Source of the DNA: Bryopsis sp. KO-2023 | Lineage: Eukaryota; Chlorophyta; Ulvophyceae; Bryopsidales; Bryopsidaceae | Assembly (NCBI GenBank): GCA_030272585.1 | Contig: BSYQ01000007.1 | Span: 4,282,001-4,346,000, forward strand | Reading direction: 5' to 3' | DNA: 64,000 nucleotides | Shown here: in pieces, positions 8,640 through 63,535 of the stretch | Position numbering within the stretch: the stretch's first letter is position 1 | How the letters are laid out: each line of letters opens with the position of its first letter | Translations under genes and position numbers: made by a program | Notes under the pieces: model-generated | The model's input: only the letters and a program-made list of their open reading frames with translations | What the model was told of the DNA's origin: nothing | Database searches by the model: none

Positions 8640-8890
8640 CTTCCGCCGGAGTGGCCGAGAAACACAGATGTCCTCCCAAAGAAGCTAACCTCGGATGAAC
8701 TGACTTGACCTGTTGCCACAGTCTGCCAGTATATGGTTCCAATAATACACCAATCTCATTAACCACAACAAATAATAATCCGTTAAACCATCAATTGACC
8801 TTCAACAGCGTTGGCGGCTGCTCGGGAGCCAAATTGCTGTTTTCTACGGTTTGGGTTGCCAAGCCGACACCACCAATACTATATTTTTAT
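8640..8890. repeat. Dispersed repeat, inverted copy of 28160-28380
   Basis: Read in reverse complement, this block matches 28160-28380 over about 200 bases with scattered substitutions and small indels. Shared stretches include GACGCTGTTGAAGGTCAATT, the block around ATTGGTGTATTATT, ACCATATACTGGCAGA and GTCAAGTCAGTTCATCCGAGG. The downstream copy is weakly open but neither copy has an intact long frame. It is probably a decayed mobile element or a duplicated segment, since both copies lie next to the same hairpin array in the same relative order. Confidence 0.75.
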
Positions 8891-8959: not shown

Positions 8960-9375
8960 TGTTTTGGGTATGGAGACTAGGTAACGAATTTCCATTATAT
9001 CAGCTGTTTTAGGTTTAATATGACTTAAGTGGAAAAAAAAGAGTGGGTACCGACACTAGGCAACGAATTCCAGGTCGGTATCAGCTGTTTGCTTTTTGAC
9101 TTACAGGAAAAGGAAAATAAAAAGAGTGGGTATCAAAATTCTCAAACGATTTTTCAAGTTTGATATCAGCTATTTTTTTAGATTGACTGTTGACTTATAG
9201 ATCAGGTTTAAATAGAGAAAAATAGAAAATAGAAAAAAAGAGTGTGGGTATTAAATTTTGGAACAGTTACTCGGTTTAATATCAGCTGTCTTTTAGGTCA
9301 AAATATTTAGACGAAAAGAGTGGGTCTTGGAATCCTGTCGAATGCTTATTTTTTAATTCCAATATGAACTGTTTT
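8960..9375 (+). repeat. Array of five hairpin repeats with covarying stems
   Basis: Five units lie at about 8966, 9045, 9127, 9245 and 9321. Each reads GAGTGGGT (or similar), a 5-7 base stem arm, about 20 bases of loop, the complementary arm, then ATCAGCTGTTT. The arms differ between units but remain complementary: ATGGA/TCCAT, TACCGAC/GTCGGTA, TATCAAA/TTTGATA, TATTAAA/TTTAATA and TTGGAAT/ATTCCAA. Units 1 and 2 also share the loop core CTAGG(C/T)AACGAATT. A-rich DNA separates the units. Three further units lie inverted at 26328-26580. Confidence 0.8.
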
Positions 9376-11940
9376 CTTTCAACCTGTTTTGATCATTTTA
9401 AGTTGTGAATTTGAATCAGAGCTCAGTTGCAAATCTGGAGTAACATACCATAATGAACTGTTGAAATAGATAAAATTAAACGCATGTGCTGAAAGAACCT
9501 TGATCGACCAGTTCTTGTTAATGTTTTATCGGTTTTTAAATTGACAAAAAAGATTGCTGTCACCAAACTGTGGAAAAGAAACCAAATCATGGCCCATTTC
9601 TTTTTCCTTTCATTTCAGGACTCTCGCTCTCTATTCAGGAATAGCTGCTCCACAATTTTTGAATGTAAAATCAAAATTAGAGACAGAGCCTGTCCATATA
9701 TTGATTGAGGTGAATTCTGGAGTTGTTTTCAGCTGCTTTACATGACACAGTTCAACAAAAGCCAACAAAGGACTGAGGAAACCAATTTTTACATCATCTG
9801 TAAAATATATACACATTGAGACTTGATCATTCAATTCTACCACATCCGGTTTTCTGTTCCCTTTCTCTCCAGTCCGATAATTTGCCCGATCGACATAAAT
9901 CCCAAGAACAAAAAATGTTTGGAAAAATATGGATCAAAATCCCAGACCATTTTATATCTTCAATTTGTTGTTCCCGCCCAGTTCCCAAATTTCACAACCC
10001 TTTTTTTTTCAGAGGACCCTCCCCTTCCCCCCAAAAAAATAAACAAAATCTCTAGTTCATGGCCGAGTTTTCTGTGCTCCAAAGCAAAAAAAACCAAAAC
10101 AAACATAGCACCCCTGTTGTGAATCATAGAAAAAAACAGCCCTGGAGAAAACGATCGAATTGTGAAAACTTTTTTTTTCCCTTTTTCACCCTGTTTTCCA
10201 GAAGGGGGGGCCCAAAAAAAGAATGGGCGAAAAATGTACAACTCCAGTCAAGTCCGAACCATCTGATTTTTTTTTTCCGAGAAAAGCAGCAAATCTTTGA
10301 CAACCCTTTCTCCTTCCCTGTCAAATCCACCCATTGTTTCTTTCTTCAACCCCCCCCCCTCCCAAAATATTCCTTTATCGAAAAGAAACAAATCGACTGA
10401 AAAATTCCTTCCGCTGAGTAAAAAGAAAAGAGAAGCAAAATCTCACCATTTTTCCCCCCTCAAATATTCAAAAAAAAATTAACCCCACCAGATATTCCTT
10501 TTTGTCTCCTTTCTTTTGATATCCTTCCATCAGTCCAGACTGAATTGTATTCAAAACATCGCCATCAGTAGTTTCTTTTCATTTTTTCCCGTCAATCTGA
10601 ATCTCCGTCCCCCTCCAGGTAGATTCTTTTTTCCCTTATCCTTTTCCCTTCATCTTCAGTGTCAACTTTTCCTTCAATTTTTCCCACCCCTTGTTCAATT
10701 TCACATCAAAACCTCTCAGGAGCACCCCCCCCCCAAAAAAAAAAAACAAAAAAAAAACACTCCTTTCAAGGCTACCTTTTCTATAATCCGAAAACAAAGG
10801 GAAAAAAAAAGTCGACAGACTTTTATGTGTGTCTAGAAATATAACACACAGAGAAATCGATGGAAAAACTCCTTTTTGTATTTTTATTTTCCCACCGGCT
10901 GTTATCCACAGGACCCTTTCCAGTCAGTGCAATAACACCGTCCATTCGAAACACCACCATCAGTTTTTTTTTCCATTGCCTGACCCAGCGGACCAATCCC
11001 TTCCAAATGATATATCAACAGTTTCTTTTTTTCTCTTCCAAAATTCACACCAGGAAACTCCGATGAAAAAAATCCAAAAATTTCCATTCAGGGTCCCCTA
11101 TCAGTTTTGATGATGAGAAGGGCAAAAAGAAATTTTTGTCGATAAATTTTCATCAGCCCCTCTCATAATAACCAGAAAATAACTGTAGACTCCAAGGAAA
11201 AAACACTTGATTGGATTATCAAACCCTGTTTGTTTTTTTTCTTTTCACTATCCCCTCCGATCGGTCCAACATGACCTCCATTCAAACATAAAACACCACC
11301 CTCTTCATCCTTTATATATATATATATATATATACATACCAACTCCACCACACGATTTCTTTGGACTCTTTCACCAAAGGTCACCCCCTCCCCCCCCCAA
11401 AAAAACAAAAAGATCAAAACCTCTTTTCGAGGCTGAACAATAATTTCCTCTTTTCGTTTTCCTCCTCCATTGCTATCCCAGTAACTGTCGTGACTTTGTA
11501 AGTAAAACCGAAAAGGATGCAAAGCACCACACTTATAAAAACAGAGAGAAATGACCGGATTGCCTTCGATGTGTTTCAATCGTCAAAGAAAAAAGGCCCA
11601 CCAATCCGTCAATAATTCCCTTCATATAACACCATTTTTTTCCATATAAATATATATATGAACCCCCCGCTTTTTTCCCCAATACCCCAGTTCTTTCTTT
11701 TGCTCTTTGCTTCTTTTTTCTTTTTTTTTTTGCCACACTCCATTCCCATATTTGAAAAAAAAATAAAAAAAATCCCCTTTCCATCGAGAGTGAAAGGAGA
11801 TTGCCAAATTTTATGCAAGCAAATAAAACAAATAAAACAGCAGAAAAACATAAGATAATAAGGCGAAGCCTTAAGTATCTGTGTAAATAAAAGTACTCAA
11901 AAAATCGGTCGATTTACCTCACTGGACGGATATTTTTCTC
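9376..11940. other. Pyrimidine-rich gene-poor region
   Basis: The plus strand is dominated by T and C, with long runs such as TTTTTTTT and CCCCCCAAAAAAA and a (TA)n tract at 11312-11334. Short phrases ending in CATCAG or CCAG recur but do not form open exons. No gene is supported. Confidence 0.5.
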
Positions 11941-25856: not shown

Positions 25857-26325
25857 TGTCTACCAGTTGATTGCATATCGATTATTCATCCCCGACCCAC
25901 GATATCGGTGCAGTGATTTGCAGATTGTACTGTGGTGGCAATGATGAACGTTGTCTGTTATTCACCTTGTTGCAAGGAACTGAGGCCGTTCTGACGACAC
26001 AGCAGTATAATGTTTTGCCTTTTATTGTGCAGTAAAATATGTATTGCGACTTCCATTTCGATTGGGCAGTGTTGGTGAGCTCATCTGTTGATTTGTGGGG
26101 GGTGATTCCTGCTCTGCATGTTCTGTAATGATTGGTGTAATGGTTGATGAACATATTGGTGTTGGTATTGATTTTTTTAGATCACAGACTGTGATTCACA
26201 GTATAGTTTTCTATGTTTCCTTCAACAATTAATAATGATATGTGAATCCATCACTTCAAAATCCACTGCAAAGTTTGCAGTGCAAACGAACTTCGATTTT
26301 CATTTCATCTAAATATTACAAGCTA
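25857..26325. other. AT-rich spacer
   Basis: No gene or clear element. A minus-strand frame at 25882-26154 has no motif. It leads into the inverted hairpin array at 26.33 kb. Confidence 0.4.
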
Positions 26326-26327
26326 AA

Positions 26328-26582
26328 AGACAGCTGATATCAAACCGATAATTGTTCCAAAACTTGATACCCACTCTCTTTCTCTAATTTTTCTGCATTA
26401 TAACCCTAATCTAAAAGTCAAGAGTCAAAAGTCAATCTAAAAAACAGCTGATATCGGACTGGAATTCGTTGCCTAGCCCGATACCCACTCTTTCTTCTTT
26501 TTTCTCTAAGTCATCTAGAAAACAGCTGATACCGACCTGGAATTTGTTGCCTAGTGTCGGTACCCACTCTTTTTTTTCCCAC
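26328..26582 (-). repeat. Inverted array of three covarying-stem hairpins
   Basis: Written on the plus strand, each unit is ACAGCTGA, stem arm, about 20 bases, complementary arm, then CCCACTCTTT. Stems are TATCAA/TTGATA (about 26337), TATCGG/CCGATA (about 26452) and TACCGAC/GTCGGTA (about 26532). Units 2 and 3 share the loop core CTGGAATT(C/T)GTTGCCTAG, the reverse complement of the loop core at 8.98 and 9.06 kb. The orientation is opposite to the 9-kb array. Confidence 0.8.
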
Positions 26583-28159
26583 TAAAGTCATAGAGTAGTC
26601 AGCATTTTTTTCCTGTTTTCCTCCCTTTTTCTTCCTTAATTTAAAAATCTGTGGTGCTCACAGAAAAAATAAAAATGAAAAATGAAAAATAAGAAATAAG
26701 AATTAAAAATAAAAATAAAAAATCTATTCTGTTGCCAGAAAAAAAAAATCAAAAATAACTAAAAATCGAAAATAAAAATCGAGCCTGGATTTTGGTCTAA
26801 ACAATCAATGCACATTCCATATTGGTTTTTTGGCTGTATGCTGCATCAGCATCTCCATCCTGTGTCTGACTGGCCAGCAAGTGCTTTCCACTCTCAATAT
26901 TTTTCATCAATCCCTCCATCTGAAAACCCCTCCCAATTGCATCCATCCCAGCAAACCACACTACCCAGCCGTTGTTGCTTATCCATATCCCTGGGAAAAT
27001 GGGGACTCTCGAGTGCTTTCTGGAAACGCGACATGTAAAAATGGCTTCTTGGCTGGGCATTCCTCCACGCTGCAAGCTGATCATGTTCAATTTTTTTCCA
27101 AATCGGCAGATTCTTCTCATCAGAACAGGAGATTTTGGAAACTCGCTGCATCAACTGGACCAACGTTCACTCATGTTTCTCCCAAGCTCATCTCCACAAA
27201 AGGGAAGCTTGCATCAAGGGTTCAATTGGCCACCTTGTCCGGAGTATTAGATTTGAAAGAAAAACCCTTGCTGAAGGAAGATGCTTTCTTATGTAATTAC
27301 AAGCGGAAGTGATATAGGCCATCACTGATCAGCATCAATGGACTCATCAACAAAAGCGGAAGCTGCCAGTTTTGCAGATCTGCCTAAGGAAAACGGACCA
27401 AGCGATGAAAAGTGTAAGTTTCCTCCCAACCAGAAAAATATTGCCCTTGATCGAAAAGAGGTTGGAAGCTGTAAAAAAAAATTAATTGGAAAAGAAGAGT
27501 GCTTCATTTCATGGCTTTTGATACAAAGTTGAGGCCCCAAAGGGCCGGGTGCCTTTGTAGGGATCACGAGGTTGTTGAGGGAGAATAAGAGGGTTAGGTT
27601 TGTGGTTTAGGGACGGTACTTATAGGGTCTGTCCGGGACGAGATCGAGGGATCTCGTCCCCGTCCCAGTCGATCAAACCGAGTCAACTGGGATGGACAAG
27701 ATCTCGTCCGACCAAATGGTACGGAAGTAATCCAGTCACGGACAACCACTACGAACATAAAATGTTCGTATCAGCTTTGGAAAAAATGGACGAACCCAAG
27801 CTGCAGCTCGAGTGATTTTCAACTGAGTTACCATGGTCGGAAAAGAAGCTCACAGGCGGTGGTGACGTTTAAAAACGCCTCCACTACACCCTTAACGCTC
27901 CGGGGCAGTTTCCTTATGTTTCGTTGTCCTCTTGCATCCAATTCCGGATTCAACATTTTTTGAAGTGGGAAGATCGGGCCACAACGGAACTGTTGAGTAT
28001 AAAAAAGAAGTTAGAACAACGCTCCAAGTCACAGGTTCACGAAATAACTTGAACGAAAAAGAAAGAACTTGTTGGGGCCTCTTACTTCAGATGGGATCGT
28101 GCGTTCGGTGCCCATGCTTGAGGGCGACGTGGTTGTTCTCCATCAAGGCGGGGCCGCCT
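26583..28159. other. Spacer between hairpin array and dispersed repeat, with local hairpins
   Basis: AAAAT-rich DNA at 26640-26790 is followed by sequence with short open frames on both strands (plus 26830-27312, 160 codons, no known motif). A perfect hairpin GGGACGAGATC-GAGG-GATCTCGTCCC lies at about 27636-27661, and another, ACGAACA-TAAAA-TGTTCGT, at about 27751-27769. No gene is called. Confidence 0.4.
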
Positions 28160-28380
28160 GGAAGCTGGTCGATAGTATTGGTAGTGTCGCCTCGACAACC
28201 AAAAACGTAGAAAACAGGGACTTCGTTCCGCAGCAGCCGCCGACGCTGTTGAAGGTCAATTGATGGTTGAACGGATTATTTGTTGTGGACCACAACTTGT
28301 GGTTGATGGGATTGGTGTATTATTAGGACCATATACTGGCAGAGTGTGGCAATAGGTCAAGTCAGTTCATCCGAGGTTTG
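28160..28380. repeat. Dispersed repeat, inverted partner of 8640-8890
   Basis: See the partner copy. This copy is readable in one frame as a short peptide segment (VERIICCGPQLVVDGIGVLL, then GPYTGRVWQ), interrupted by stops just outside. It may be the remnant of an element's coding region. Confidence 0.75.
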
Positions 28381-28876
28381 CTTCCCCCCCCCCCCTACAT
28401 TCCCTGCCAAATTCTCCTTTCTTTACCCATGGGCGTTAAACCAGCAAAAAAAAAGCAAGACTGTATTCACAAACGCCACTTTGGTTATGGGACACAGACA
28501 CACACAGAAAAAAACCACCCAAACAGATTAACGACCTGAAAATCAGCAAGGATTTCCATCAGCTTGAATTATGCTTGCCCCGTGTTGCACTATTTTAGGA
28601 TATCGTTTCTTGTGGATTTTTGCAGGTGCCAAGAATTCGCAGTCACTGCACATGGCTGTTGCACCGCCCTTCAGAAAAGTCACATTGCATGTCCAACGTC
28701 ACATGCCAAAACAAACGATCCCCACGGTGTTTTCAATATTATAGCCTACTTCCATCTGACAAAAACCACCAGAGACTATCATCCTACAAATCCCCCCCCC
28801 CCTCCTTTCTCTTTCTGAGCTCCTGCAATACCCCTCCACCCCCACCCCCAAAAAGGTCATTCGCTATATCATCTAA

Positions 28877-35635: not shown

Positions 35636-37413
35636 TTGTCGTTGAACAAACGAGAGAGAGAGAGGGTTACTGTAATGGCCGTGGTCAAGATAATTGGGAG
35701 TTGTAACTGTAGCACCCCAATGGCGTAAAAGGCATACATGGTGATTTATACTTTTCTTAACAAAACAAAAAAATCCAATTGTTTTGTTTGATGTTTTATT
35801 CGACGGAAGGGGAGGTTGTTATCATTTCAGTTTCTTTGCCGACCTCTGACATTTGTTTGTGGTTATGAAGGGCAGCATGTTTGTTTGTTTTTGCTTGAAT
35901 CATACTTTCACGCAGGACTGATCAATCGTGAAGAAGCAAAAAATGAATCCACATATTTCTGTTAAACTAGAAACGTAGTTTATTTTTCTTTGTGTCACCA
36001 TCACTTGATCCAGATTTTTCTTCACTCTCCGAATAATTTTTCCAGCGAACAAGCAATTCTTACATCCAATCTCTTTTCCTTCTTTTTTAAATATTGCTTA
36101 ATTGAAAATAAAGACTATTTCCCATAAACTCTTCCCAAAAACCAATTGTCCTGAATCCCCTTACAATCTCCAAAAGTGTTGATGTCTGCAATCTTGAAGT
36201 AATGTGTCATTTTTCTCCTTCTCGAATTTTTAATCTGAATTTTTAATCTGACTTTTTTAAAATTTATCAATTAGTTTATCTATTTATTTATTTATTTATT
36301 TATTTAATTAATTTCAATTAAACTGCCAACGCGAATCTTCTTATTTTTTTATTTTTTCCATTTTTTTGAGAAGTTTCACACATCTGTTTGAATCCTCTGA
36401 TGGATGCTAGAAAAAACACTGGAATATTACATATATATATATATTAAATTGTAAATTGTTGAAAAATTAAAAAAATGGTCACCACCCAAGATTAGCAGAA
36501 AGAAAGGCAACAGATTTAGCCAAGCTTCACCTGGCAGCTTCACCTTTTTTTTTCATCATATGTTCACAACGCTTATAACCTAATTAGGTCCTGTTTTGGA
36601 AGGACTTTGATGCAATTTTTTTTAGCAATTCAATTGCAAGTGAACAGAAAAGGATGAACGGTAAAAATCATACCTCACACATATTAAAAGAGAACAATGT
36701 CATTTCAGGAGCTTCTCATGAAAGAAAAAAGATTGAGAAGAAAAGAAATGGTAGAGGGAAGATAAAGAAACTGAAGCTTACACAACTCTTTTGGGGAAAC
36801 CTTGACAAAAAGACCCCGACACATGAAGCTTGGGGTTTTGTAACTGAGAAAAAAGAACCTTGATTAATTTGGGGAATCGGTGATGAAGGATGAAAATGTA
36901 TGCCCAAACACTGTGGTATTTTTGTTGCTGATGCCTTGCACTGATCACCCTCTTTATTAAAAAAAATCTTTTCTTTCTTTCTTGATGACAATAATATACC
37001 ACTACCACATCAGTCCCAGTCGTTTCCTTCTGGACGGCGGCGCTTTCCAATCTCGAGTTTAAGCAATTGATCGGTAGCGCGCAAAGCAGAAACACCAATG
37101 CCAGCTCGTCGAACAATAAAGCGACCTCGGTTTTAAGACTTCAGGGCAAGACCTCGTCGACCACAAGAAACCTCATCACGAGGTACAGGACTTCCAAAGC
37201 AAAAACACAAACTTGAAAGAAACGGACACTTTTTCCCGAGGTAGTCCCCTCGTGAACTTGTTTCCAAGTTCACGTCACCCTCAAATCAGCTCACAGCACC
37301 CATCACAGGCGCCGCTGTAGAAGAACGAATTGCAAACCTCGTTCGACAATAGCAAATTGGCCTGGTGCAACTTTGAAAAGTTAAGGCTACGTTTAAGGTG
37401 CGCCAGTGATCCG
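35636..37413. other. AT-rich intergenic region
   Basis: Contains (TTTA)n at 36273-36305 and (TA)n at about 36429-36445, and short purine-rich frames without motifs. From about 37270 the sequence resembles the region upstream of the second mannanase gene (45590-45720 inverted), so it is part of the duplicated unit and should contain its promoter. Confidence 0.5.
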
Positions 37414-40183
37414 ATGGGTCGGAACGCCCGCTGTGTCGCTGCTCTGGTGGGGCTTTGCCTTCTAGCGAACTCCGGGGTCAGGGTATCGCACGCGGGGATG
37501 ATACGTCGGAGCGGGACGCGTTTCATTGATGAAGGCTGCAAAGAGTTTATGTTCAGCGGTTGGAACAGGTAGATCGCAAGTGCGCACTTACGCATTGGAA
37601 TGCATCCACCCGAATTCGGGTGGATGTATTTCCTCACGGCGATCCAAACCCCTACAACAGCGTTTTGTTCTCACTTTCTTTGATGTCGTTTTTCAGCTGG
37701 ACCCTACTGGAGTCTGCCACAGGGATGGGGCCCAGTCTCGATGAGATTTATGGCACGATGCAAGCTGCTGGCTTGACGGTGGGGCGTTTCTTTGGTCACG
37801 GTGGTGGCAAGGGATTTGTTCTGCAAAACGGTCCAGGTGCTGTAGTCCGAAATGCCAGAGCTCTTGATCCTTTACAAAAATTAGCCCAACTCCAAACGCA
37901 TTCGTTGATGCTTGGTGCAGGTTCTTACAACGGCAACGCGTTGGTGGCGTTGGACAAGATTCTGGATGAGGCATCCAAACGAAACATAAGACTCATTGTT
38001 GCGTTCTCGAACAACTGGCAAATTCCAGATGGCAAGGCAGGGGTGAGGATAATTCCCAATCGATTTGGCTTTTCCTGTTCAATCTGAATTGATTTCAAAC
38101 TTCAATCCCTCATATCTTCTGAGTCGAAGATGCTTTTTATGCGCACCATCAATTCGTTGTTATACATCCTTCTGTTCCCTCCTGTTTGGCGTTAGAAAAC
38201 TCACTGTGGTGCAATAAAATTGTTTGTCGATGTAATGAGATTTTTTGGGCTGCGGTGTTGAACCTGCGCAGTTTGCCGGCTGGGCTGGAAAGGATCCTGG
38301 TGCTTTCTTCACGGATGCGACGGTCAAGCGATTCTTCAAAGATCATATTAAGTTCATCACCAATCGGGTGAATTCAGTGAACGGCAAACTGTACAAGGAA
38401 GACGACGCGATATTGGCGTGGAACCTTATCAACGAGCCTCGCTGCGATTGTGATGTTTGGAAGCCTGTCGAGTCCCAGTGCACACCCGACTGCGCCGATC
38501 AAGTGCAGGTGCATACCTTGTTTCGACTTGTTCATTTGTTTGCTGTGGAATGGTGTGACGGTATCAGATATACATCGTCTTGATATGATGTCCAGGCGTG
38601 GATTGAAGAGATGTCGGAGTTTGTGAAATCTGAAGACCCCTATCACATGGTCACCGTTGGGGAGGAAGGTTTTTATTCGTTCAACAGTGGACGTGAGCAC
38701 ATCAATCCAGATGTTCTGCCTTGGGCCTCCCAGGAGGGAATGGACAAGGTAAAGCCAATCACGAAAACCCAGGCCAACACATTTTTTTGATTCAGCCGAC
38801 TCGGAGTCCTGCAGACTTACAATTGATTCTCGATCTGTTCAGTTCGTGCGCGAGACTGGCCTTACAGCAGAGGATTCACATTGGGCGAAACGATCGGGCC
38901 AAGACTTCATCAGAAACCACCAACCAGAAGCGATCGACTTTGCAGCAATTCACTTGTGGGTCGACAACTGGATGGTGCGTCGATTGGTTCATCCTTGATC
39001 TTTGTTTTCATTGCCAGATGCCCTTTTTCCTCTCCTTTCGACCATACATCCCAGGCGTCCTCTCATTTGCATCATATTGCTGTTTGCAATTCAGCGGTTA
39101 GTATTGCGATAGATCCACTCTTTCGTTCTTCGACAGGTGCCCCAACTGCAGTTTCAACGAAACTGGATCGCGGAGCACATCAATGATGCTAAAGGCCTTG
39201 GGAAGCCCTTGGTTGTCGAAGAATTCGGGAAAACTGCACCAGATACCCCACAAGGGCGCACAGCTGAGAGAAATCCATTCTTCCAAGACATTTACAATAC
39301 TTTTGCTCAGCAAAGAGCAGCAGGGGGACCGCTGAAAGGTGCGTTGCGCATTTTTGTAACGTCTTCCGATTGTCTTACTTTCTCCACTGCTGGAATTGTC
39401 TAGTGACGGTTCTCCTCGTTTTCAGGGATCGGGTTCTGGGAGTTTGGCATTGGTAAACGCACTGACATCAGCGTGAGCACTGGGGACTCTACCTGGACAG
39501 ATATCATTGTTCCAGGATCACAAAAGCTGCTCGCTGAATTGCAGTCGAAGGGCAAAGTTCAAAACTGCGTTCCTGGTGGGTATTTAAGGGCACGTGCACA
39601 TATCTTGCTCAGCACTTGATGTGTTAGGGATACGAACGCTAGCAACCTATGTCCTGTTTCGACTTTCTGTGCGATTTTTCAGGTGAGTTTCGCTCATTTG
39701 ACGCCGTCCTGAGCGGCAATGGGAATCAGTACATTACTGGGGGGGCGCACCTGGAAGCGGCGAACCCAGGATTGATTCTCCTTGCTGAAAGCTCAGTGAC
39801 CTTGAAGGATTGCTTAGATATCTGCGATGAGCTCGACGAGTGCAACGCAATCTCACACGGAAACCAGCAGGTAAGGTCGACATGCAACCTATAAACGTTG
39901 CGAGCTAGAACTGCATCTTTTTGTGACTGTTCGACTGGGTGAGGCTGGCGTTTCATACATGCGTTTCCTTGGTGAGAAGTGAAACTCAACACGCGCGCGC
40001 TATGCATCGAACAACTTCGTCCCCTAATCACGTTTTCAATCCTGGTCGTCTTTTGTTCTGCAGAGGGAATGCATCCTTTACTCTGATGGCGGCGACCAGG
40101 ACAGTTTGAAGTGGAGTGGTGGTGGATGGCAGACATACTGGAAGACCACCAGCGCTCCAACCAAGATATCTGTTGTTGGTTAG
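37414..40183 (+). CDS. Secreted GH5 endo-beta-1,4-mannanase with PAN-like tail, copy A
   Basis: Ten exons: 37414-37568, 37697-37836, 37921-38042, 38272-38508, 38596-38748, 38843-38974, 39137-39338, 39426-39575, 39683-39870 and 40064-40183. All phases close, giving 532 residues. The N-terminus MGRNARCVAALVGLCLLANS ending SHA is a classical signal peptide. GH5 features: FMFSGWN near 50; TVGRFFGHG; ILAWNLINEPRC with acid/base Glu at about 194; AAIHLWVDNW; KPLVVEEFG with the nucleophile Glu at about 342; GFWEFG. The order and the long loops match the GH5 subfamily 7 mannanases, which cut the backbone of beta-mannans outside the cell. The last two exons encode a Cys-rich module (LKDCLDICDELDECNAISHG, then RECILYSDGGDQDSLKWSGG) resembling a PAN/Apple domain, a likely carbohydrate or protein binding unit. 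It is paired with an inverted paralogue ending at 42619. Confidence 0.92.
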
Positions 40184-40677
40184 TCCATGGAATCAAGGCA
40201 GGGAAATTTGTGGGCTTTGGGGTGGTTCGCGAATGTCATGTCGTGATTGAAATCCATTTTTGTTTTTGTTTTGTTTTGGAAGGGTGTAGCCAATGCTACA
40301 CCTGTGGTTGTACTTTGATACAAGATAGGCATAGCCAAAAGGTTCAGTCAGATTTTTCTTTTTTGGGGGGAAATTTTTCTTTTTCCGATTGGTTCCATTC
40401 AATTTTTTCTTCTCCTATTTGTTCTGGGGAGAGCAGACTGAGTTGAAAGTTGTTTGGAGGGCAATTTAATAATGACGATAAGATGTGAGGCTTTCCTCCC
40501 CCATGTACAAACAAATTGTCTGCTGGATGGTGGGGAAATGATGTGAATCATTGCTAATGGCTTGAAATTCTGGAACACCCTGCTACATCGATCGGCACAA
40601 CCATCCCCCTCCCCCCCTCGGAAAAAAAAAACAAAAAAAACCAATTCCCCAATCCCCAAATCCCAATCTATTCTCAA
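40184..40677. other. Spacer between mannanase A and the alkyltransferase
   Basis: The two genes converge here. T-rich and C-rich runs are present and no coding signal is seen. Confidence 0.5.
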
Positions 40678-41772: not shown

Positions 41773-42618
41773 CACTGGAGAGGTGGGCAGATTTCGCTCA
41801 ATTCTGCGAAGGTGCAGGGGTTTAGAAAGAGCGACAATGTGTTGTGCAAGGATGAGTCATTTCTGGACCGAACAGAATTAAATATCATCAAAACGTTGAT
41901 TTCGTTTGGGATGAAGGCCCGCAGTTGCATGTGCGGCTGAGTCTTTGGGTGGAAGTCGATTGGATTTGGTGCACCGGTCTAACTCGTGAACTCCCTTCAG
42001 TCCGAATGCCTTTAGTCCAAATCTGTATGTCAGACCGAGAAAAAAGGGGGGGGGGTTAGGATGCAGGGTTTAAATAAAAGGTAAACCGTCGATTTGGGTG
42101 GAGAGTCGGGTCAAAATCAATTTTTCATTCAGAAGTGTGTACCCCCCCCCCCAACGAAGGGAACTCATACCAGGTTAATAATCAGTCCTCCTGACAGATA
42201 CAAACTGTCGAGAATTTTTGGTTTTCTTGATGAGAAGTGTCACCAAAAGGCAATGCAAGAATCTGGAAAGAGTGGACATCCACTTCCTCTCCAAAAACGT
42301 TATAAACCGTAAAATTGCGCTCATAATTAATTTCTCGCCAAAACGATTGAATTTTGCTCCAAATTCTGATATGGGATGCTCCAAACAACTTTCAATCAGC
42401 TGAGGGAAAAAAGTTGAACGCAACAAAGCAGAAGAAAATCTTTCGCCAAACGAAAGTTGCATCTACCTTGTATCACTTTATAATTTCAGTGCATGGTGCA
42501 TTAGTGGCTGCACCCTTCCAAAACAAAACAAAACAAAACAATAAATCGATTCTAATCACAACATAACAATCAGAAAACCCCCCAAAGCCCACGAATGTCC
42601 CTGCCTCGATTTAACGGG
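41773..42618. other. Spacer with dispersed repeat
   Basis: 42115-42275 resembles 55490-55640: shared TTTTCATTCA, a C-run followed by AACGAAGGGA, CCTGACAGA, and TTCTTGATGAGA. No gene is supported; the region holds the 3' flank of mannanase B. Confidence 0.5.
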
Positions 42619-45589
42619 CTAACCAACAACAGATATCTTGGTTGGAGTGCTGATGGTCTTCCAGTATGTCTGCCATCCACCACCACTCCACTTCAAACTG
42701 TCCTGGTCTCCGCCTTCGGAGTAAAGAATGCATCCCCTCTGGGAGACAGACGACCAGGATTAGAAAAGTGATTCAAAGCAACTTGAAGGGAGCGAAACTG
42801 CATCCATATGGATAGCGAGTGTTGAGTTTCCTTGCCAAGGCTGGATAGAAACCACAACGCTCACCCGAACAGTCAGAAACGAACATCATGTGATATGATA
42901 TTTCTATCTCGCGACCTATTCATCTCACCTGCTGGTTTCCGTGTGAGATTGCGTTGCACTCGTCGAGCTCATCGCAGATATCTAAGCAATCCTTCAAGGT
43001 CACTGAGCTTTCTAGCGAGAGAATCGATCCTGGATTCGCTGCTCCCAGGCGAGCGCCCGCAGTAATGTACTGATTGTCATTGTCGCTCGTAACGGCGTCA
43101 AACGAGCGAACTTCACCTGAAAGATTACAGAAAAGTCGGAACAAGACATTGCCAGCGTCCGTACCCCCGACTATTTTCCTGTGCCCTCACCCTCACATAC
43201 CCACCAGGAACGCAGTTTTGAACTTTGTCCTTCGACTTCAACTCAGCGACTAGGTCTTGAGATTCTGGAACTATGATATCTGTCCAGGTAGAGTCCTCAG
43301 TACTCACGCTAATGTTGGTGCGTTTATCAATGGCGAACTCCCAGAGCCCGATCCCTGAAAACGTGTTTCACGCATGTCAGACACGTACACGAGGAGGACA
43401 ACCAGACGTGTTCCAGTTCACTGATGGGAAAACAAACCATCGACTGAGTATTTATGCAGACCCGCACACACCTTTCAACGGTCCCCCTGCTGCTCTTTGC
43501 TGAGCAAAAGTATCGTAAATGTCTTGAAAGAACGGATCCCTCTCAGCTACGCGCCCTAGCGGGCTATCTGTAGCGATTTTCCCGAATTCTTCAACAACCA
43601 AGGGCTTCCCAAGGCCAATAGTATCATTGATGTGTTCCGCGATCCAGTTTCGTTGGAACTCCAGTGTGGGCACCTGTCCGGGAAGGAAAGAGTGGAACCA
43701 CCACAAAAGAGCGGGACACCAACCGCCCAATGGCGAACAGCACAATATGATGCAAATGAGACGACGCCTGTGTTGCACGCTCGATGTCCACAGAAACAAA
43801 AATAGGAAATAGCAGATGTGGCAATAAAAATTATGAATATCAAGCATGCCATGGATCAGTGATCCACTCGACGTACCCCCCAGTTATCGACCCACAAGTG
43901 AATGGCTGCGAAGTCGATCGCTTCTGGTTCGTGGTTTCTGACGAAGTCTTGGCCCGATCGCTTCGCCCACTTTGCATCATCTGCTGTTAGGCCAGTAACG
44001 CTCACGAACTGAGCAGATCGAGAAGCCATACGTGAGTTTGCAGCCTGTCGAACTCTTATCTACCCTAGTACGATTCCTTTCCAACAGAATGGGGAAACGT
44101 AGATAAAAAGTGAACGAACCATCACATAGAGTGCTCCGTGCCAAGAGAAAGCATGCTGCACAATGAATTAATAGTGTCGGCTTGGGTTTTTGAGCTCGCC
44201 TTTACCATGTTGATGCCCGCCTGTGTGGCCCAAGGTATAGCGTCCGGATTGACGTGCTCACGTCCACTGTTGAACGAATAAAAACCTTCCTCCCCAACGG
44301 TGATCATGTGATAGGGGTCTTCAGATTTCACAAACTCCGACATCTCTTCAATCCACGCCTGGACATCATATCAAGCCGATGTATATTCGATACCGTAGCA
44401 CCATTTCACAGCAAATTTGCTTAAACAAATAGACAGTTGCCAGAACAAGGTATGCACCTGCACTTGATCCGCACAGTTGGGTGCGCACTGGGACTCAACA
44501 GGGTTGAAAATATCGCAATCGCAGCGAGGCTCGTTGATAAGGTTCCACGCCAATATCGTATCGTCTTCCTTGTACTTCTTGCCGTTCAGTGAATTCACTC
44601 GATTGGTGATGAACCTGATATGATCTTTGAATAATTGCTTGACCGTCGCGTCCGTGAAGAAGGAACTGGGCTTCTTCCCAGCCCAGCCAGCGAACTGCGC
44701 AGCCAATCAACACCACAGCCCATACTTCACGTTACATCGACAAACAAGAATATTTTGCACCCCACTGGCAGCGCATTTCGTTCCGGACTGTCGCCCCAAG
44801 AGGGGGACACAGAAGGGTATATCAGCAACGAAGTGGTGGTGCAAACAAAACGCAGCTTCTAATTAGAGGTTACATGCAACAAGAAATCAAGAATCGCTGG
44901 GAAATCCTTCGCACCCCTGCCTTGCCATCGATGATCTGCCAGTTATCCGTGAACGCAACTATAAGTCTTATGCTTCGTTTGGATGCCTCATCCAGAATTT
45001 TGTCCAACGCCGCCAACGCCTTGTCGCTGTAAGAACCTGCACCAAGCATCGAAGAACGCGTTCGGAATTGGGCTAATCAGAACAGTATGGCGAACCCACG
45101 AATTCTGTTTATCTATATATTTCCAGCACATCGATAAAGGTCGTTCTTTTGCCAGCTTTGAGCATCATCGTTTGCAGCACCTGGACTACCCTGCAGAACG
45201 AATCCCTGGCTACTGCCGTGACCAAAGAAACGCCCCACCGTCAACCCAGCAGTTTCCATCGTGTCATAAATCTCATCGAGACTGGACCCCATCCCTGTGG
45301 CAGACTCCAGTAGGGTCCAGCTGAAAAACGAAACGAAAACAATGAGAACGGAATCCACAAGGAATGCCGGAGTTTGCAAACACATCCAATTGGTTCGTTT
45401 GGAAAGAAATGTATCCACCCGCTGTATGATCTACCTATTCCAACCGCTGAACATAAACTCTCTGCAGCCTTCATCAATGAAACGCGTCCCACTCCGACGT
45501 ATCATCCCCGCGTGCGAGAACCAGATCCCGGAGCTTGCTAGAAGGCACAGCCCCACCAGACCAGCGACACAGCGAGCGTTCCTACCCAT
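42619..45589 (-). CDS. Secreted GH5 endo-beta-1,4-mannanase with PAN-like tail, copy B
   Basis: Ten exons in transcript order: 45589-45435, 45320-45181, 45036-44915, 44694-44458, 44358-44206, 44008-43877, 43673-43472, 43354-43205, 43116-42929 and 42738-42619. Their lengths (155, 140, 122, 237, 153, 132, 202, 150, 188, 120) equal those of copy A exactly, and all phases close to give 532 residues. The signal peptide, ILAWNLINEPRC, AIHLWVDNW, PLVVEEFG and the Cys-rich C-terminal module are all retained, and no frame is broken, so it is probably functional. Differences from copy A are scattered substitutions (for example QGSPG for QNGPG, and SYSDKALAALDKIL for SYNGNALVALDKIL). Introns have diverged more than exons but share short blocks, and about 120-190 bases upstream of the ATG are also similar. 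Confidence 0.92.
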
Positions 45590-46448
45590 CGGATGACTGG
45601 CGCACCCTTAAACGTAACCTTAACTTTTCAAAGCTGGACCAGGCCAACTTGCTGTCGTGGAACGAGAAGACTCAACCATCCCACACCTTGAGCCTGTGAT
45701 GGCTGACGTCACTTGAGGGTGACGTAGAAGTCGTTGAAACATCACAGACCCCTCACCCACAAGTTCTTGATGTGGCTGCTGTAACAGCCTGATCGATTGT
45801 TTGGGAGACAGATCTGAATCCAATGTAGACTGTGGGGGTGCTGATTTAGATTTGGCTTGTATTACTCTGGCATTATGGGGGGTGATGGCCTCTTTTTGCT
45901 GTAATTGGTTGATTGATTGATTGCCGAGTTATAACTAATTAACTCTCTTACTAATTAGTAAGAGAGTGACTGAATGCGCTCTTGGTGAACGTTGATGGTT
46001 TGGAAAGAAAACTGCAGTCATGATCATAAAAGGAGTGCTGATGAAATTTCCTAGGAAAAGCTTCTTTAGTATTCATAGGAATAATATTCCCTCAAGTGTG
46101 TCCACCCAACCAATTGGCTGCAAGCACTCAAGAGAGATGGCATGATTTCGAAATCAAATGAATTCATTTTGCCACCCAACAGGGATGCATCAAAACGAAA
46201 CTCAGAACAGAAGTGCGTCACAACGTTCAGAATATCACATCAACCAAACATCACCCCCAAATTCCCTATCCGAAAAATAAAAGCCACAACCTTTCGCAAA
46301 TGAAAATAGCTTTTAAAAAAGCAACTATCCCATACTTTCGACTTGGGTTCTTGTACTAAGATCAGTAGAAACGCCAACTCAGCTGGTTGGATTTTTTTCC
46401 CTGAAGGAAAACAAAAACTTCTCTTGGAAAAAGAAAAAAGAAAAAGTT
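45590..46448. other. Promoter side of mannanase B and AT-rich spacer
   Basis: 45590-45720 resembles the inverted upstream region of copy A, including CCATCACAGGC and GTCACCCTCAA. 45880-45930 (GATGGCCTCTTTTTGCTGTA followed by (TTGA)n) recurs at 54668. No gene is seen. Confidence 0.5.
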
Positions 46449-58596: not shown

Positions 58597-58853
58597 TGTA
58601 CAGTTGCACTCATGTTTTCCCAATCCTTGCGTGAAACGAGCTGTGGATCGTTTGAGTCTTTTACACTGTTAGATTGTTCCGAGTTTCCTTCCCGATAAAT
58701 ACCTTCCCCAGTTTCTGTCAAGCGCCGTTTCACATCCATTCCAGTAACCTAACTTCCTCACATCGATCTAACCCTTCCCTCCTTTCGATCGTCTAACTTC
58801 CTCACAACAATCTAATCCCGATAATCAGTCATCTAAACAGACCGTGTGGAACA
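58597..58853 (-). repeat. 3' LTR of the Gypsy-like element
   Basis: It carries the same internal ATG (about 58739) as the 5' LTR. From it the frame would leave the LTR into flanking DNA and stop after about 15 further codons. Confidence 0.95.
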
Positions 58854-59032
58854 TGGGCCCAACCTCGCCTGATTTCCACTGTGAGAGACTCCGAAAGAAA
58901 AAGAGATGACGGGTCATCGCTAAAAAAGAAAAGGCTGCAAAAAAATGGGTTGCGTGCAACACTGGGAGGGGACGTTCTGAGAACCCGAAAAAAATCAAAA
59001 AAGAAAAAATGTGTATCCCGAGCCCGGATGTC

Positions 59033-62000
59033 TTACATGTGGGGAGGCCAGTCGAAATCGTCATCCGCATGCCAAGGTTGACGTCCATGGCATTTCTGGA
59101 GGTGATCTTGATGGTAGATGCCTCGAGGGCGGCGGCCAGGGCCCGTGCGTGGTGTGAGTTCAGCTGTTCGCCAGAGGGAGCCCGTGAGTTGTTCGACGAG
59201 CCGGAGGGGGCCACGCCAGTGGGGCTGTAGCTTGTCTTCTCGCTTGGCGGCTTGGACGGCGTCATAGTGCCATACGAGGTCCCCTGCGTGGAGTTCCTTA
59301 GGGACGACTTTGCGTAGGCTGTTGCGGTAAGCGCGTTGCTTGTTTGCTCGTTCCCGGGCAGTCCATTGTGTGGCCGCAGAGCTGGTCCAAAGCTGCTGGG
59401 GGGAGGCGCCGGTGGTGCTGTGCGGCGTGGTGTTGATGGCACGGACTGCAGCATCAATATGGTGAGGCCAGGCGTGGGTGCTGTTGTGCAAAAGTTTTTT
59501 GATGCGGTCCTCGAGGGTGCGGTGGAAACGTTCCACCAACCCATTGGAGTTGTGTTTGTGTGGGGGAGTGTAAATGAGCTCCACGCCGTTGTCTTTGCTC
59601 CAGGTTCGCATGTCGTTCGAACTGTTGTAGCCGGCCCCATCGAGGATGAGGAGCACAGGGTGTCCGTGGTTTCCGGCCCAGCGGTCCAATGCGGCCGTGA
59701 TTGTGGCGGACGTCACGGTCCTGGAGGCCGTGGCTTGTCCGCGTCGAGTGCAGCTGTCCACGATGCAGGTGATGAACTTTTCGCCTGTGGTAGCGGGCGT
59801 GAGGGGCCCGATAACATCCAGATGCAGCACAGTGCCAGGGGAATCTCCGTAGGGCAGTTGGCCCCAGGGACGACGTGGGGTGAGGGGACGAAAAATGGCG
59901 CAGGTTGGGCAGGTGGCGACGACTTCAGAAATGACGTTTTTGGGAATAGTGTGACCGTCCTGTTTGGCTTGGAGGTGTGTCTTCTCTACACCCCAGTGCT
60001 CCTTGCGATGGGTGTTCCAAGCTTGCTGATGAGGTGTTAGGGTGGTCGTGGTGTTGACGGCTGGTGTTGGTTGTTTTTTGTCCGTTTGGTTCGGCCGACT
60101 GAGGAGGTCAGCAGCAACGTTAGTGGACCCCGGCAAAAATTCGAAGGTGGTGTGGGTTTCGTTACCGAGTATCCAGGCCCACAGGCGGCCCACCCTTTTG
60201 TCGTTTTTTCCAAGCCCGCCTGTTCGCATTTGTTCGGCGAGTGCTTGGTTGTCAGTGCGTAGGGTGGTCGGTGTGTTTCCTCGATACGCCGACGTTTTTT
60301 GGAGGGCCCATTTGACGGCCTTCAATTCGCCAAGGAACGAGGACGTCGGTTCTGTGAGCCGAGTACTGCCATAATCGATCAGGTGGGTTTGGTCCTTGTT
60401 GTCGTGGGCGAAGAGGATGTAACCTGCGTGTTCGCCTGACCAGTCTGTTTCGAGTGTGAAGGTGCGAGCTGTGAGGCCTGGTAGGGCTAGATCCGTTTGG
60501 TGGTTTACGGCGTAGGAGATGAAAGTGTGGAGAGCTTGCTGGACGTCGTGTTGCCATTGTGCGACATCGGGGGCAGCTGAATAGGCGGCCAGGAGTTTTC
60601 TCAGGGTGTCCAGGTGATGTTCGAGCTTGGGTATTGTTTTCCTGCAGTAAGAAAAAATACCAATGATCCTGGCGAGGTCAGTGGTGTCGTTGACAGGGCC
60701 GAGTTCATTGAGTTTGTCCGTGAGAAAGGGCTTGTGGGACCACTGGCCGTCGTGGAGGTGGTAACCGAGGAACTCCACTGTATCTGCGAGCCAGGTCACT
60801 TTTTGGTAGTTCACTTTTAAGCCGTAGTCCTGGAGAACCGAAAATAGTTCGTTTAGTTTCGTGTGTAGTTCGGCCGCAGTGGGGGCGCCCAGCAAGATAT
60901 CGTCTGCGTAGATTACGCAGTCCAAATGGCCGAGGATGCTGGTGATCCTGTCCGAGAACAGGGTTGGGCTCCAGCACCACCCTTGGGGGAGGCGGTTCCA
61001 CTTGTATCGCCGCCCCTGCCATGTAAAGGAGAATAGGGGCGACAGCTCAGGTGAGATGGCAAGTCCAAAAAAAGCGTCCTTGAGGTCTATTTTGGCATAG
61101 ACCTTCCACTCGGCCTTCACTTTCCAGATAGTGCGCCATGGGTCGGAAAAAACCATGCCCAGTTTTTTGAAGTAGCCATTGAGTCGTCGAAAGTCGTTAG
61201 TGAAACGATAGGTTCCGTCGTCTTTGGCGATGGGCAGTAATGGGTTGAAAAAGGCTGCTTCAGAGGAAGGTGATAGAGAAAGATACCCACGGTCGACGTA
61301 GAGCTCCAGTTGTTTCGTGACTGCGTTTCTGTCGACGACCTTGTCGACAGAATACTCCGTGCGTAACCCTGCGTCGCCTGGTTTGGTCCACTCCATTTCG
61401 TCCGGTCTGATTTGGAGAGCTTTCATTTTTTCGTTGATAGGGTGTGTGCTGAGGTCGCCGACGTCTGGAAAACGTGCCATGATGTCGTTAGCAATGTCCT
61501 GGCTTGTGAGGTTTGTTTTTTGTGGCAGGGTGACGGCGTGGACTTTGGGGCGGTCCAGGCGGTTGACGACATGGTGCTGTGCGCCGTGGATATTGATGAG
61601 GGGGGTGGTGGCTGTGAGTTGGTGGACGCGATCCGTCGAGTTCCAGACGTCGACGCGGAAATGGCCCGCCTTAGTCGTCAATGCGCCGGTGACGAGGCCT
61701 GGGCGGTGGAGTGCAGGCGTGATAGTGGCCTGGCCGGCGACGTCCATTCTATATGGTAAGTAGAGTCGAGTCCACTTTTGGGGCTCCAGGATATATGGTT
61801 TTCCTGCTTGCAGCTGAATGCAGGTTTTTTTACTGGAGAGGCCAGTTCCCTGGTGTACAGGCCAGAGCTGGGTAAGGTGGACAGTGCCTTGTTGAGGTGC
61901 AATGGTGGGGTTAGTAGATGTTACCACATGACATTGGATTGTGGCTCCTGTGGTGGTTTGACAGATTTCGCCAAGGTTGGCATTCACCGAGATGTTGAGC

Positions 62001-63421
62001 GCCTTGATCCCGTCGATGCCCAGAATTGGAGTGGTCGTCGCATTGGTGACGAGCCATGTGACGAGCTGCGTGTCATCCGATACTCCGATAGCGGTAGGCA
62101 GGAGAGCTTCCCCATTGACGACACTAGAGGAGCCGTTGAAGCCTTCAATGCGCTGGGGCGTTTGGAGGGTGGAGCTGTACGGAATCCCATACCGTTTGGC
62201 GATGGAGAGAGGGAGCAGGGACGCCTGAGATCCGGTATCGATCAGGCAGGATTTGAGTGGTTGTTTGTGAATAGTGATGGGGGTGTGGAGAAGAGATGGT
62301 GGTGTGGAAGCTGCTGCATACTGCGAATTGGTCTTTACAGTGTTAGTAATCTTCTGGTTTTGCTTTTTCTTCCTACAGTTTGCTTCCGAGTGGCCCTTCC
62401 ACCCACAGTAGCCACACGTTTGATCCCTGTCCGCCTGAAGCGCAGCCACCGTGTCCTGAAGCCCTTTGAGCTGTGCCTGGAATTCCGTCGTCGGGGGCGT
62501 TGAAACGACGGTGCACCACATCCAGCGCAAAATCCATTCGCCAGTGGTGGTCGCCAGTGTGACGACCGGCAGCTTCCCCAAAGTCCGAAGCGACCCCTTG
62601 ATCGTCTTGATGACACTCGAGAGCTTGAGGTAAACGAAAGCGAGGACGTTCACCAATAAGAACGCCAGGAACGCACCAAAAAGCTGCGACATCATATCCA
62701 GGCGGGACGAGAACCAATGGCGGGCTCGGTTGGGCATGGCGCCAAAAACGTCGAAAGGATCACTGAAGAAACTCCTCACGGCGGTGGACAGGGAAGCAGT
62801 GGCCTGGAAAAAAGCGCTGGTAAAGAGAGTGAGACAGGTATCCCATTTTGCGCATGTCTCTGTTTGTTTGCCTTTTCCTGTAGGTAGTCGGAAAAAAGAG
62901 AACCACCCCGCCGTTTTGACGAGAGGGTCCTTTGCGCGGGGGGTGTCCCAGTTGGGTGCCAGCTTGGGTGGAGGTTCGTCGGGTGGTGGTTGATCACCAC
63001 GTTCGCGAATGTACCAATAAGGTGGGTGTTCGCGTAGTCGTCGCTCATCGCGGAGTTGCTCTGAGAGGGACATAACTTTTGCTCTGAGCTTCACTTTTTC
63101 CTTTTCCAACGCTGCCAGTTCTTTATCTTGAGCGGTTGCGAAAATGCCTCCATCCACTGTGTGTATGCAGGTGGTCGAAAAGAAAATGGTGAGCCAAGCG
63201 AGCGAGAGAGGTGAGAGGTATACTCTTTTTGTCGTTCTGGTCGCGTTGCGCCCAGAAACGTCTTCGGCTCCGAAACCATGTACAGTTGCACTCATGTTTT
63301 CCCAATCCTTGCGTGAAACGAGCTGTGGATCGTTTGAGTCTTTTACACTGTTAGATTGTTCCGAGTTTCCTTCCCGATAAATACCTTCCCCAGTTTCTGT
63401 CAAGCGCCGTTTCACATCCAT
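59033..63421 (-). CDS. Gag-Pol polyprotein of the Gypsy-like element
   Basis: An uninterrupted 1462-residue frame. Order: an N-terminal segment of which the first 47 residues are encoded inside the 5' LTR; a hydrophobic stretch LAWLTIFFSTTCI (about 74-86); a coiled-coil-like region around 98-132; a second hydrophobic stretch FGAFLAFLLVNVLAFVYLKL (about 248-267); zinc knuckle C-X2-C-X4-H-X4-C (336-349); aspartic protease LIDTGSQASLLP (DTG about 395); reverse transcriptase with FTNDFRRLNGYF and YADD (about 836); RNase H LETDWSG (about 990); integrase zinc-binding region with CPTC, then catalytic core LDVIGP, LILDGAG and ERFHRT. All catalytic motifs are present, so it is plausibly active. Gag and Pol are fused without a frameshift. 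The two membrane-span-like segments in Gag are unusual. It ends DWPPHM about 180 bases before the 3' LTR. Confidence 0.95.
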   Translation of the reverse strand: MDVKRRLTETGEGIYREGNSEQSNSVKDSNDPQLVSRKDWENMSATVHGFGAEDVSGRNATRTTKRVYLSPLSLAWLTIFFSTTCIHTVDGGIFATAQDKELAALEKEKVKLRAKVMSLSEQLRDERRLREHPPYWYIRERGDQPPPDEPPPKLAPNWDTPRAKDPLVKTAGWFSFFRLPTGKGKQTETCAKWDTCLTLFTSAFFQATASLSTAVRSFFSDPFDVFGAMPNRARHWFSSRLDMMSQLFGAFLAFLLVNVLAFVYLKLSSVIKTIKGSLRTLGKLPVVTLATTTGEWILRWMWCTVVSTPPTTEFQAQLKGLQDTVAALQADRDQTCGYCGWKGHSEANCRKKKQNQKITNTVKTNSQYAAASTPPSLLHTPITIHKQPLKSCLIDTGSQASLLPLSIAKRYGIPYSSTLQTPQRIEGFNGSSSVVNGEALLPTAIGVSDDTQLVTWLVTNATTTPILGIDGIKALNISVNANLGEICQTTTGATIQCHVVTSTNPTIAPQQGTVHLTQLWPVHQGTGLSSKKTCIQLQAGKPYILEPQKWTRLYLPYRMDVAGQATITPALHRPGLVTGALTTKAGHFRVDVWNSTDRVHQLTATTPLINIHGAQHHVVNRLDRPKVHAVTLPQKTNLTSQDIANDIMARFPDVGDLSTHPINEKMKALQIRPDEMEWTKPGDAGLRTEYSVDKVVDRNAVTKQLELYVDRGYLSLSPSSEAAFFNPLLPIAKDDGTYRFTNDFRRLNGYFKKLGMVFSDPWRTIWKVKAEWKVYAKIDLKDAFFGLAISPELSPLFSFTWQGRRYKWNRLPQGWCWSPTLFSDRITSILGHLDCVIYADDILLGAPTAAELHTKLNELFSVLQDYGLKVNYQKVTWLADTVEFLGYHLHDGQWSHKPFLTDKLNELGPVNDTTDLARIIGIFSYCRKTIPKLEHHLDTLRKLLAAYSAAPDVAQWQHDVQQALHTFISYAVNHQTDLALPGLTARTFTLETDWSGEHAGYILFAHDNKDQTHLIDYGSTRLTEPTSSFLGELKAVKWALQKTSAYRGNTPTTLRTDNQALAEQMRTGGLGKNDKRVGRLWAWILGNETHTTFEFLPGSTNVAADLLSRPNQTDKKQPTPAVNTTTTLTPHQQAWNTHRKEHWGVEKTHLQAKQDGHTIPKNVISEVVATCPTCAIFRPLTPRRPWGQLPYGDSPGTVLHLDVIGPLTPATTGEKFITCIVDSCTRRGQATASRTVTSATITAALDRWAGNHGHPVLLILDGAGYNSSNDMRTWSKDNGVELIYTPPHKHNSNGLVERFHRTLEDRIKKLLHNSTHAWPHHIDAAVRAINTTPHSTTGASPQQLWTSSAATQWTARERANKQRAYRNSLRKVVPKELHAGDLVWHYDAVQAAKREDKLQPHWRGPLRLVEQLTGSLWRTAELTPRTGPGRRPRGIYHQDHLQKCHGRQPWHADDDFDWPPHM

Positions 63422-63535
63422 TCCAGTAACCTAACTTCCTCACATCGATCTAACCCTTCCCTCCTTTCGATCGTCTAACTTCCTCACAACAATCTAATCC
63501 CGATAATCAGTCATCTAAACAGACCGTGTGGAACA
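63279..63535 (-). repeat. 5' LTR of the Gypsy-like element, containing the gag start
   Basis: Identical by eye to the 3' LTR. The gag-pol ATG at 63421 lies 115 bases inside it, so transcription must start within the first part of the LTR for this start to be used. Confidence 0.95.

Follow-up and report, generated by a model that had tools for sequence, protein, structure and literature searches.

Tandem hairpin arrays with covarying stems in Bryopsis sp. KO-2023: a putative protein-bound, multi-hairpin non-coding RNA

Hairpin arrays in the window and across the genome

Bryopsis sp. KO-2023 is a siphonous green alga. The assembly analysed here holds 91,088,769 bases in 28 contigs, and the window, by which the whole stretch of 64,000 bases under study is meant (G000:C7:4282001-4346000), is probably nuclear DNA. 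In the parts of the two papers that were consulted, the genome is cited in PMC12509668 and the mitochondrial genome in PMC11852573. Pfam searches with ten frames of the window gave a CCCH zinc finger, a helicase (DDX42-like) and one match below the cut-off. An LTR retrotransposon lies at 58597-63535, with a minus-strand open frame of 1462 residues that has protease-, reverse transcriptase-, RNase H- and integrase-like matches; it is flanked by two 257-base repeats, and as these are identical they suggest a young insertion. The window also contains a large inverted repeat (37338-40292 and 42505-45666), whose arms of about 3 kb are 76-82% identical.

Two arrays of hairpin units lie in this window. 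Array A (8960-9377, plus strand), read directly from the letters and recovered by a repeat search, consists of five tandem units, and the original prediction had named all five together with their self-complementary stems. Three inverted units 17 kb away had been claimed as well, and these are array B (26325-26574, minus strand; Table 1). How constant is the frame around the stems, which had been described as fixed? Here the description stands in part. On the 5' side, GAGTGGGT is exact in three of the five units of array A, A1 having the degenerate frame TTTTGGGT and A4 the variant GTGTGGGT. On the 3' side, ATCAGCTGTTT is exact in units 1 and 2 and differs in the others, with a diverged frame, ATGAACTG, in A5, a unit whose loop also lacks AAC; A1 has about three additional bases in its 3' frame. 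With 10 occurrences in the window, the motif GAGTGGGT exceeds the 1.65 expected, and 0 of 100 shuffles reach that number. Unit B2 is ambiguous in position: its loop resembles that of A2 (position 2), yet its location is that of position 3 in the other arrays. As inverted paralogues 17 kb apart, arrays A and B could recombine and thereby invert the stretch between them.

Table 1. Hairpin units, arrays and associated flanks. Locations without a contig name are window positions; bit scores are those of model R1, described in the text.
Feature	Location	Strand	Details
Unit A1	8960..9010	+	stem ATGGA (8970-8974) : TCCAT (8991-8995); weakest unit, 22.1 bits, E 0.0047, left out of the R1 alignment
Unit A2	9036..9093	+	stem TACCGAC (9048-9054) : GTCGGTA (9074-9080); AAC in loop; 72.2 bits, in the R1 alignment
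Unit A3	9119..9178	+	stem TATCAAA : TTTGATA; 77 bits, in the R1 alignment
Spacer motif GATTGACT	9181..9188	+	lies between the third and fourth units; identical in arrays A-D
Unit A4	9237..9294	+	stem TATTAAA : TTTAATA; 60.8 bits, in the R1 alignment
Unit A5	9313..9377	+	stem TTGGAAT : ATTCCAA; 57 bits, in the R1 alignment
Unit B3	26325..26381	-	position 4; stem TATCAAG : TTTGATA
Unit B2	26439..26495	-	stem TATCGG : CCGATA; z = -5.11
Unit B1	26517..26574	-	near-identical to A2 (97% over 59 bases)
Flank upstream of array B	26614..27349	-	71% homologous to the array C flank (L020 4021-4723)
Flank piece	28172..28384	-	84% shared with 8681-8882, on the upstream side of array A
Array C	C6:4401847-4402310		five units
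Array D	C7:1422389-1422626	-	three units
Array E	C9:4675511-4675647 (L022 4812-4948)		one whole unit and fragments

How far does the family extend? DNA and pattern searches of the 91-Mb genome gave 17 units in five arrays, A to E, counts that are lower bounds, as members with a strongly altered frame would escape these searches. Both frames combined as one pattern matched seven places in the genome and the reversed control pattern none. A looser pattern (AGAGTGGGT, 20-48 bases, TATCA) matched 27 places, with a single match for its reversed control; 12 of the 27 lie in the arrays and 15 elsewhere, seven of the latter being copies of one other sequence. When pairing is counted over seven stem positions, one of which is fixed by the pattern itself, the 12 family places score 5-7 and the nine distinct other sequences 1-5.

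Arrays A to D can be aligned collinearly, D1-D3 falling at positions 3-5, and the four are collinear paralogues in unlike surroundings. Array D itself is matched elsewhere and its flanks have no match. Array E resembles the wreck of recombination within hairpins, being made up of an isolated 3' half, a 5' half cut short and a chimeric unit with a broken stem; in E2, a recombinant, a u1-type 5' half is joined to a B2-type 3' half. The loop of C1 (L020 4848-4918) holds an extra, partly palindromic stretch, GACTAGCTAGTC, that is absent from the other units.

Arrays A, B and C sit within longer duplicated blocks. A search for genes shared beside the arrays found open frames alike between the regions only inside the arrays and the duplicated flanks, and the longest frame of the upstream flank of array B had no Pfam match; on these two grounds the blocks are taken, short of proof, as non-coding. 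A coding reading of the arrays themselves is unlikely, since the open stretches inside them are at most 65 residues long. The flanks were also considered as a transposon and this was rejected, as one LTR-like repeat accounts for 17 of the array B flank's 24 matches in the genome. This repeat (27516-27779, about 260 bases) has at least 17 further copies in the genome, with five pairs 7.7-8.9 kb apart, and the copy in the flank is probably a solo LTR. Downstream of array A, a stretch of about 70 bases (9762-9833) has further copies, 76-80% identical, at five places on contig C8 and one on C9.

A common fold and covarying stems

The units share a predicted stem-loop that can be written AAA-G-AGU-G-GGU-stem-loop(AAC)-stem-AUC-A-GCU-G-UUU, and its two 1x1 mismatches are kept in most of them. 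From the base upwards, the lower part consists of AAA, a G.G mismatch, AGU/GCU and a G.A mismatch; then follow a nine-pair helix, starting with G-C, G.U and U-A, and a loop of about 20 nt. The structure was written by hand, and RNAalifold returned the same one from an alignment of 13 of the 17 units. Four units (A1, C1, C4 and E2) were left out of this alignment and of the model built on it, R1, for indels or chimerism, and R1 recovers all four (E2 at 61.8, C1 at 40.1, C4 at 37.4 and A1 at 22.1 bits). Minimum folds computed with flanks differ from the family fold for A1, C5, D1 and D3, and in whole-array minimum folds not every unit appears as an isolated hairpin.

Are the arms of a unit paired with each other more than copies of one repeat would be anyway? 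In the 13 aligned units, 94.3% of 194 cells are paired, against 36-57% when the partners are slid by 1-3 columns. Seven of the 15 pairs are altered on both sides (shuffled mean 3.8, with 6 of 500 shuffles as high), and the covariation score is 0.374 against 0.207 in shuffles, none of 500 being as high, in a sample that is small (five arrays from one genome of one species). One of the five measures, the number of further pair types, shows no excess (15 against 13.6 shuffled, a value that 112 of 500 shuffles reach). When all 17 units are anchored on their frames alone, a unit's own 5' and 3' arms pair in 108 of 119 cells over seven positions; arms re-dealt among the units pair in 92.6 cells on average, and not one of 20,000 shuffles reaches 108. 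Because this shuffled mean is high, the copies must share much of the stem by descent. The poorest pairing is that of A1 (4/7 in this register, with its extra bases), C4 (5/7, loop deletion) and E2 (5/7, recombinant). By this count, as by the pairing at the loose-pattern places (5-7 of 7 positions in the family against 1-5 elsewhere), the family is mostly paired, and copies are not unpaired as often as paired, the outcome that the original prediction had named as telling against it.

If so much of the stem is shared by descent, is the pairing simply a legacy? The arrays would then be a neutral relic, a low-copy repeat or transposon end (foldback- or MITE-like) that went through a few duplications with its pairing already in place. 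The longer duplicated blocks around A, B and C agree with this, as do the fragmentary state of E and the LTR-like repeat inserted in the flank of B, and hairpins and spacers are conserved about equally. Between arrays A and C, identity is 170/216 (79%) in the hairpins and 109/143 (76%) in the spacers, with 60/80 (75%) in the upstream and 193/309 (62%) in the downstream flank; with hairpins barely more conserved than spacers, rates alone show no hairpin-specific selection. However, only five loci were found in 91 Mb (a lower bound), array D keeps its unit order where no flank match was found, and the pairing has survived two-sided substitution. A neutral relic is in our view distinctly unlikely.

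The evidence for two-sided substitution comes from units compared inside groups of equal array position, comparisons that are not independent of each other. With B2 grouped at position 2, all 13 two-sided changes retain a standard pair where 6.9 would be expected, an excess matched by 0.26% and 0.06% of shuffles in two counts, and a standard pair is retained in 14 of the 27 one-sided changes. Placing B2 at position 3 gives 15/15 against 8.8 expected (0.2% of shuffles), and removing it gives 9/9 against 5.4 (3% of shuffles). In this reduced set, the two-sided changes fall at four places, namely pairs 3 and 7 at position 2, pair 4 at position 3 and pair 4 at position 4, the last of these with three pair types. 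Reduced to one comparison per position, the result is 4/4 against 1.28 expected when A5/D3 is included (1%) and 4/4 against 1.0 for arrays A-C only (0.16%). Two-sided changes thus occur inside lineages, and therefore a few ancestral copies without compensatory change, the other outcome that had been named in advance as adverse, do not explain the stems.

What is conserved is not spread evenly over the unit. In 66 pairwise comparisons among 12 distinct units of the alignment, identity is 88% and 91% in the two frames and 83% in the loop AAC, against 50% and 67% in the stem arms and 47% in the remaining loop. The contrast between frame and stem is weaker among the eight position-grouped pairs (B2 as position 2), with 84% and 89% for the frames, 78% and 75% for the stem arms and 84% for the loop; AAC reaches only 75% in this set because A5 lacks it.

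Compensatory changes could also be the work of mutation. In this explanation, quasi-palindromes undergo template switching, which copies one arm anew from its partner, and covariation arises without structural selection; the original prediction had put forward such rebuilding of arms as one of its two branches. The mechanism is a described one and, according to the parts consulted of PMC8794818, it can yield compensatory changes in a single step, so that the hairpins treated there and those of the arrays are alike in their compensatory stem changes; array E, moreover, shows recombination within hairpins (E2). Unlike those hairpins, as far as these parts of the paper describe them, the arrays have mostly isolated pair changes within lineages, wobbles that last and, in most units, 1x1 mismatches that switching would erase. 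The orientation of the loop is also retained, and the mismatched arms of E2 have stayed unrepaired. The same parts of that paper treat isolated changes as uninformative about template switching, and alone they do not exclude the mechanism. Template switching is possible for single events, but the evidence speaks against it as the general cause; we consider it very unlikely in that role, and the arms can be accounted for without it. The arrays offer a small test of stepwise against template-switch compensation.

The strand and the kind of molecule

Which strand would carry the structure? Counted over 16 distinct units (without B1, whose arms are those of A2), the 7-bp stem has 14 G.U and 3 A.C cells, or 12 and 1 when A1 and E2 are dropped too. 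Swapped arms would give about 21 G.U and about 10 A.C, so part of the G.U bias is a matter of composition. The folding energy is lower on the GAGUGGGU strand in 17/17 units and on the GAGTGGGT strand in 5/5 array regions. Measured against shuffles, 13 of 17 units have their lower z-score on the GAGTGGGT strand, and A1, A5, C4 and D1 have it on the opposite one; the z-score reaches -2 for single units in 9/17 and is positive in D1 (+1.07) and C4 (+0.67). Taken together, the excess of G.U and the lower folding energy on one strand point to RNA of the GAGTGGGT strand. Such RNA is the probable form of the structure, and the strand test alone also fits single-stranded DNA of that strand. The other branch of the original prediction, a selected RNA or DNA structure, thus gains support and is narrowed towards RNA of one strand, with 14 G.U against 3 A.C cells and the lower energy in every unit.

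It may be asked whether the DNA itself is the functional form, as a cruciform or as paired protein-binding sites in regulatory DNA. The 3' frame does contain the palindrome CAGCTG, and array D, with open frames read by eye, appears to lie between divergent ones, but array C by the same reading is apparently between convergent genes, and the strand bias of wobbles and folding energy speaks against such an element. We regard a DNA-level element as extremely improbable.

The arrays have the marks of structured RNA: compensatory changes beyond shuffled and slid controls, together with strand-specific wobbles and folding. Is it a known one? The original prediction knew of no described family with this layout, and for Rfam (release 15), as tested on the array A region, this holds. 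At gathering thresholds, the whole window matched tRNA only; with E <=5, array A gave a single match, to a CRISPR repeat model (E 3.8) on the other strand and mostly over spacer, which is taken as chance. In the literature on algal tandem hairpins, Bryopsis and siphonous algae, these units were not found described among the matches listed, in the parts of those sources consulted.

Several particular kinds were tried and rejected. For a box C/D snoRNA, RTGATGA is present in 0/5 arrays and there is one CTGA, in B before the first hairpin; for a box H/ACA snoRNA, ACA occurs at 2 to 5 scattered places per array, with no fixed place after the hairpin. A Pol III internal promoter is not borne out by a B-box core that occurs only in C (twice) and D (once), nor by an A-box pattern found once, in C. 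The sole tRNA match of ARAGORN and Rfam in the window, at 2768-2853, lies outside the arrays, and a hammerhead reading of the arrays was likewise tried and dropped. As to a viral origin, the two-frame pattern occurs in at least 120 IMG/VR stretches, but the covariance model gave no match (E <=1) in 100 of them, so the pattern matches there are put down to chance.

The main rival among RNA readings is a cluster of microRNA-like precursors, in which hairpins of about 60 nt would be cut by Dicer to a duplex of about 21 nt and loaded into Argonaute. The genome has Argonaute-type and Dicer-like domains: 28 Piwi-domain matches group into 12 places, and RNase III domains occur in pairs at two places, with one of these pairs inside a 1478-residue open frame, an arrangement like that of Dicer. 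The hairpins are clustered, and most units conserve GAGUGGG, a candidate 5p seed. In the parts consulted of PMC5511227, the criterion applied to Chlamydomonas microRNAs is no more than four mismatches. Thirteen of the 17 units offer a 21-nt arm within this limit, counted as unpaired bases, in or close to the family fold, and a fourteenth, D3, does so in another fold; on this count, 13-14 of the units would resemble the microRNA precursors of green algae (Chlamydomonas, Volvox). Unlike such precursors, the arms here change in sequence with pairing kept and the loop motif is conserved. The stem part of the arms varies even between position-grouped units (78% and 75% identical), and the mid-arm two-sided changes indicate that pairing matters more than the sequence of a guide. 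Moreover, the AAC loop and both strands of the lower helix are conserved, mismatches included, which is unexpected for a guide and passenger pair, and A1, C5 and D1 fail the arm test. We consider this reading unlikely but not negligible. A variant of it would make the arrays Dicer-substrate cassettes, with a fixed processing frame (the mismatched lower helix and the AAC loop) around a middle duplex that is free to diversify as long as it is paired, and thus a low-copy, array-shaped source from which a unicellular, multinucleate alga would obtain changing small RNAs; this idea is improbable and put forward as speculation.

A putative protein-bound RNA

The kind best supported for the arrays is tandem structured RNA, a known kind, here with a putative partner. 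The reading that we consider best, at about even chances, is that of an undescribed multi-hairpin non-coding RNA whose fold is kept by selection and which is bound by a protein. The array would be part of a gene for non-coding RNA, or else of an intron or an exon that does not code, with the GAGTGGGT strand as the one read, and the transcript would bear three to five similar stem-loops in a row. In each predicted hairpin, the lower helix would be fixed in sequence, with its two 1x1 mismatches (G.G and G.A), while the upper helix would be free in sequence, pairing being its sole requirement, below a loop with the conserved AAC. It seems reasonable to suppose that a putative protein recognises each hairpin by its mismatched lower helix and its AAC loop, and that the upper helix supplies a fixed geometry. 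The repeated hairpins would then be several binding sites on one RNA, which may act as a multivalent scaffold or a sponge.

A layout of this sort has a parallel in the A-repeat region of Xist, a mammalian lncRNA, where, in the parts of PMC2796953 consulted, tandem short structured units with spacers are tied to protein recruitment. According to the same parts of that paper, pairing in Xist takes place between repeats and also between repeats and spacers, whereas the units described here pair within themselves and their stems covary per copy. The likeness is one of layout, not of kinship, and what the arrays contribute to it is the tandem units, their binding being putative.

What makes the family useful is that the paralogous arrays of one genome supply the comparison that covariation needs, so that the structure, the probable strand and the conserved contacts can be named ahead of experiments. 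Should the arrays prove to be transcribed, they would represent a new family of RNAs that probably belongs to siphonous green algae, and they would provide a defined bait with which to find the protein partner.

Some of the smaller contigs of the assembly have features of their own. In contig C26 (21,852 bases; L200), the first 4 kb consist of degenerate tandem repeats that give repeated peptides in several frames and on both strands. Contig C27 (356,152 bases) carries a small-subunit rRNA of bacterial type, as in organelles; the mitochondrion of B. hypnoides is given as 408,555 bp in the parts of PMC11852573 consulted. Contig C28 (91,672 bases) carries a green-type rbcL.
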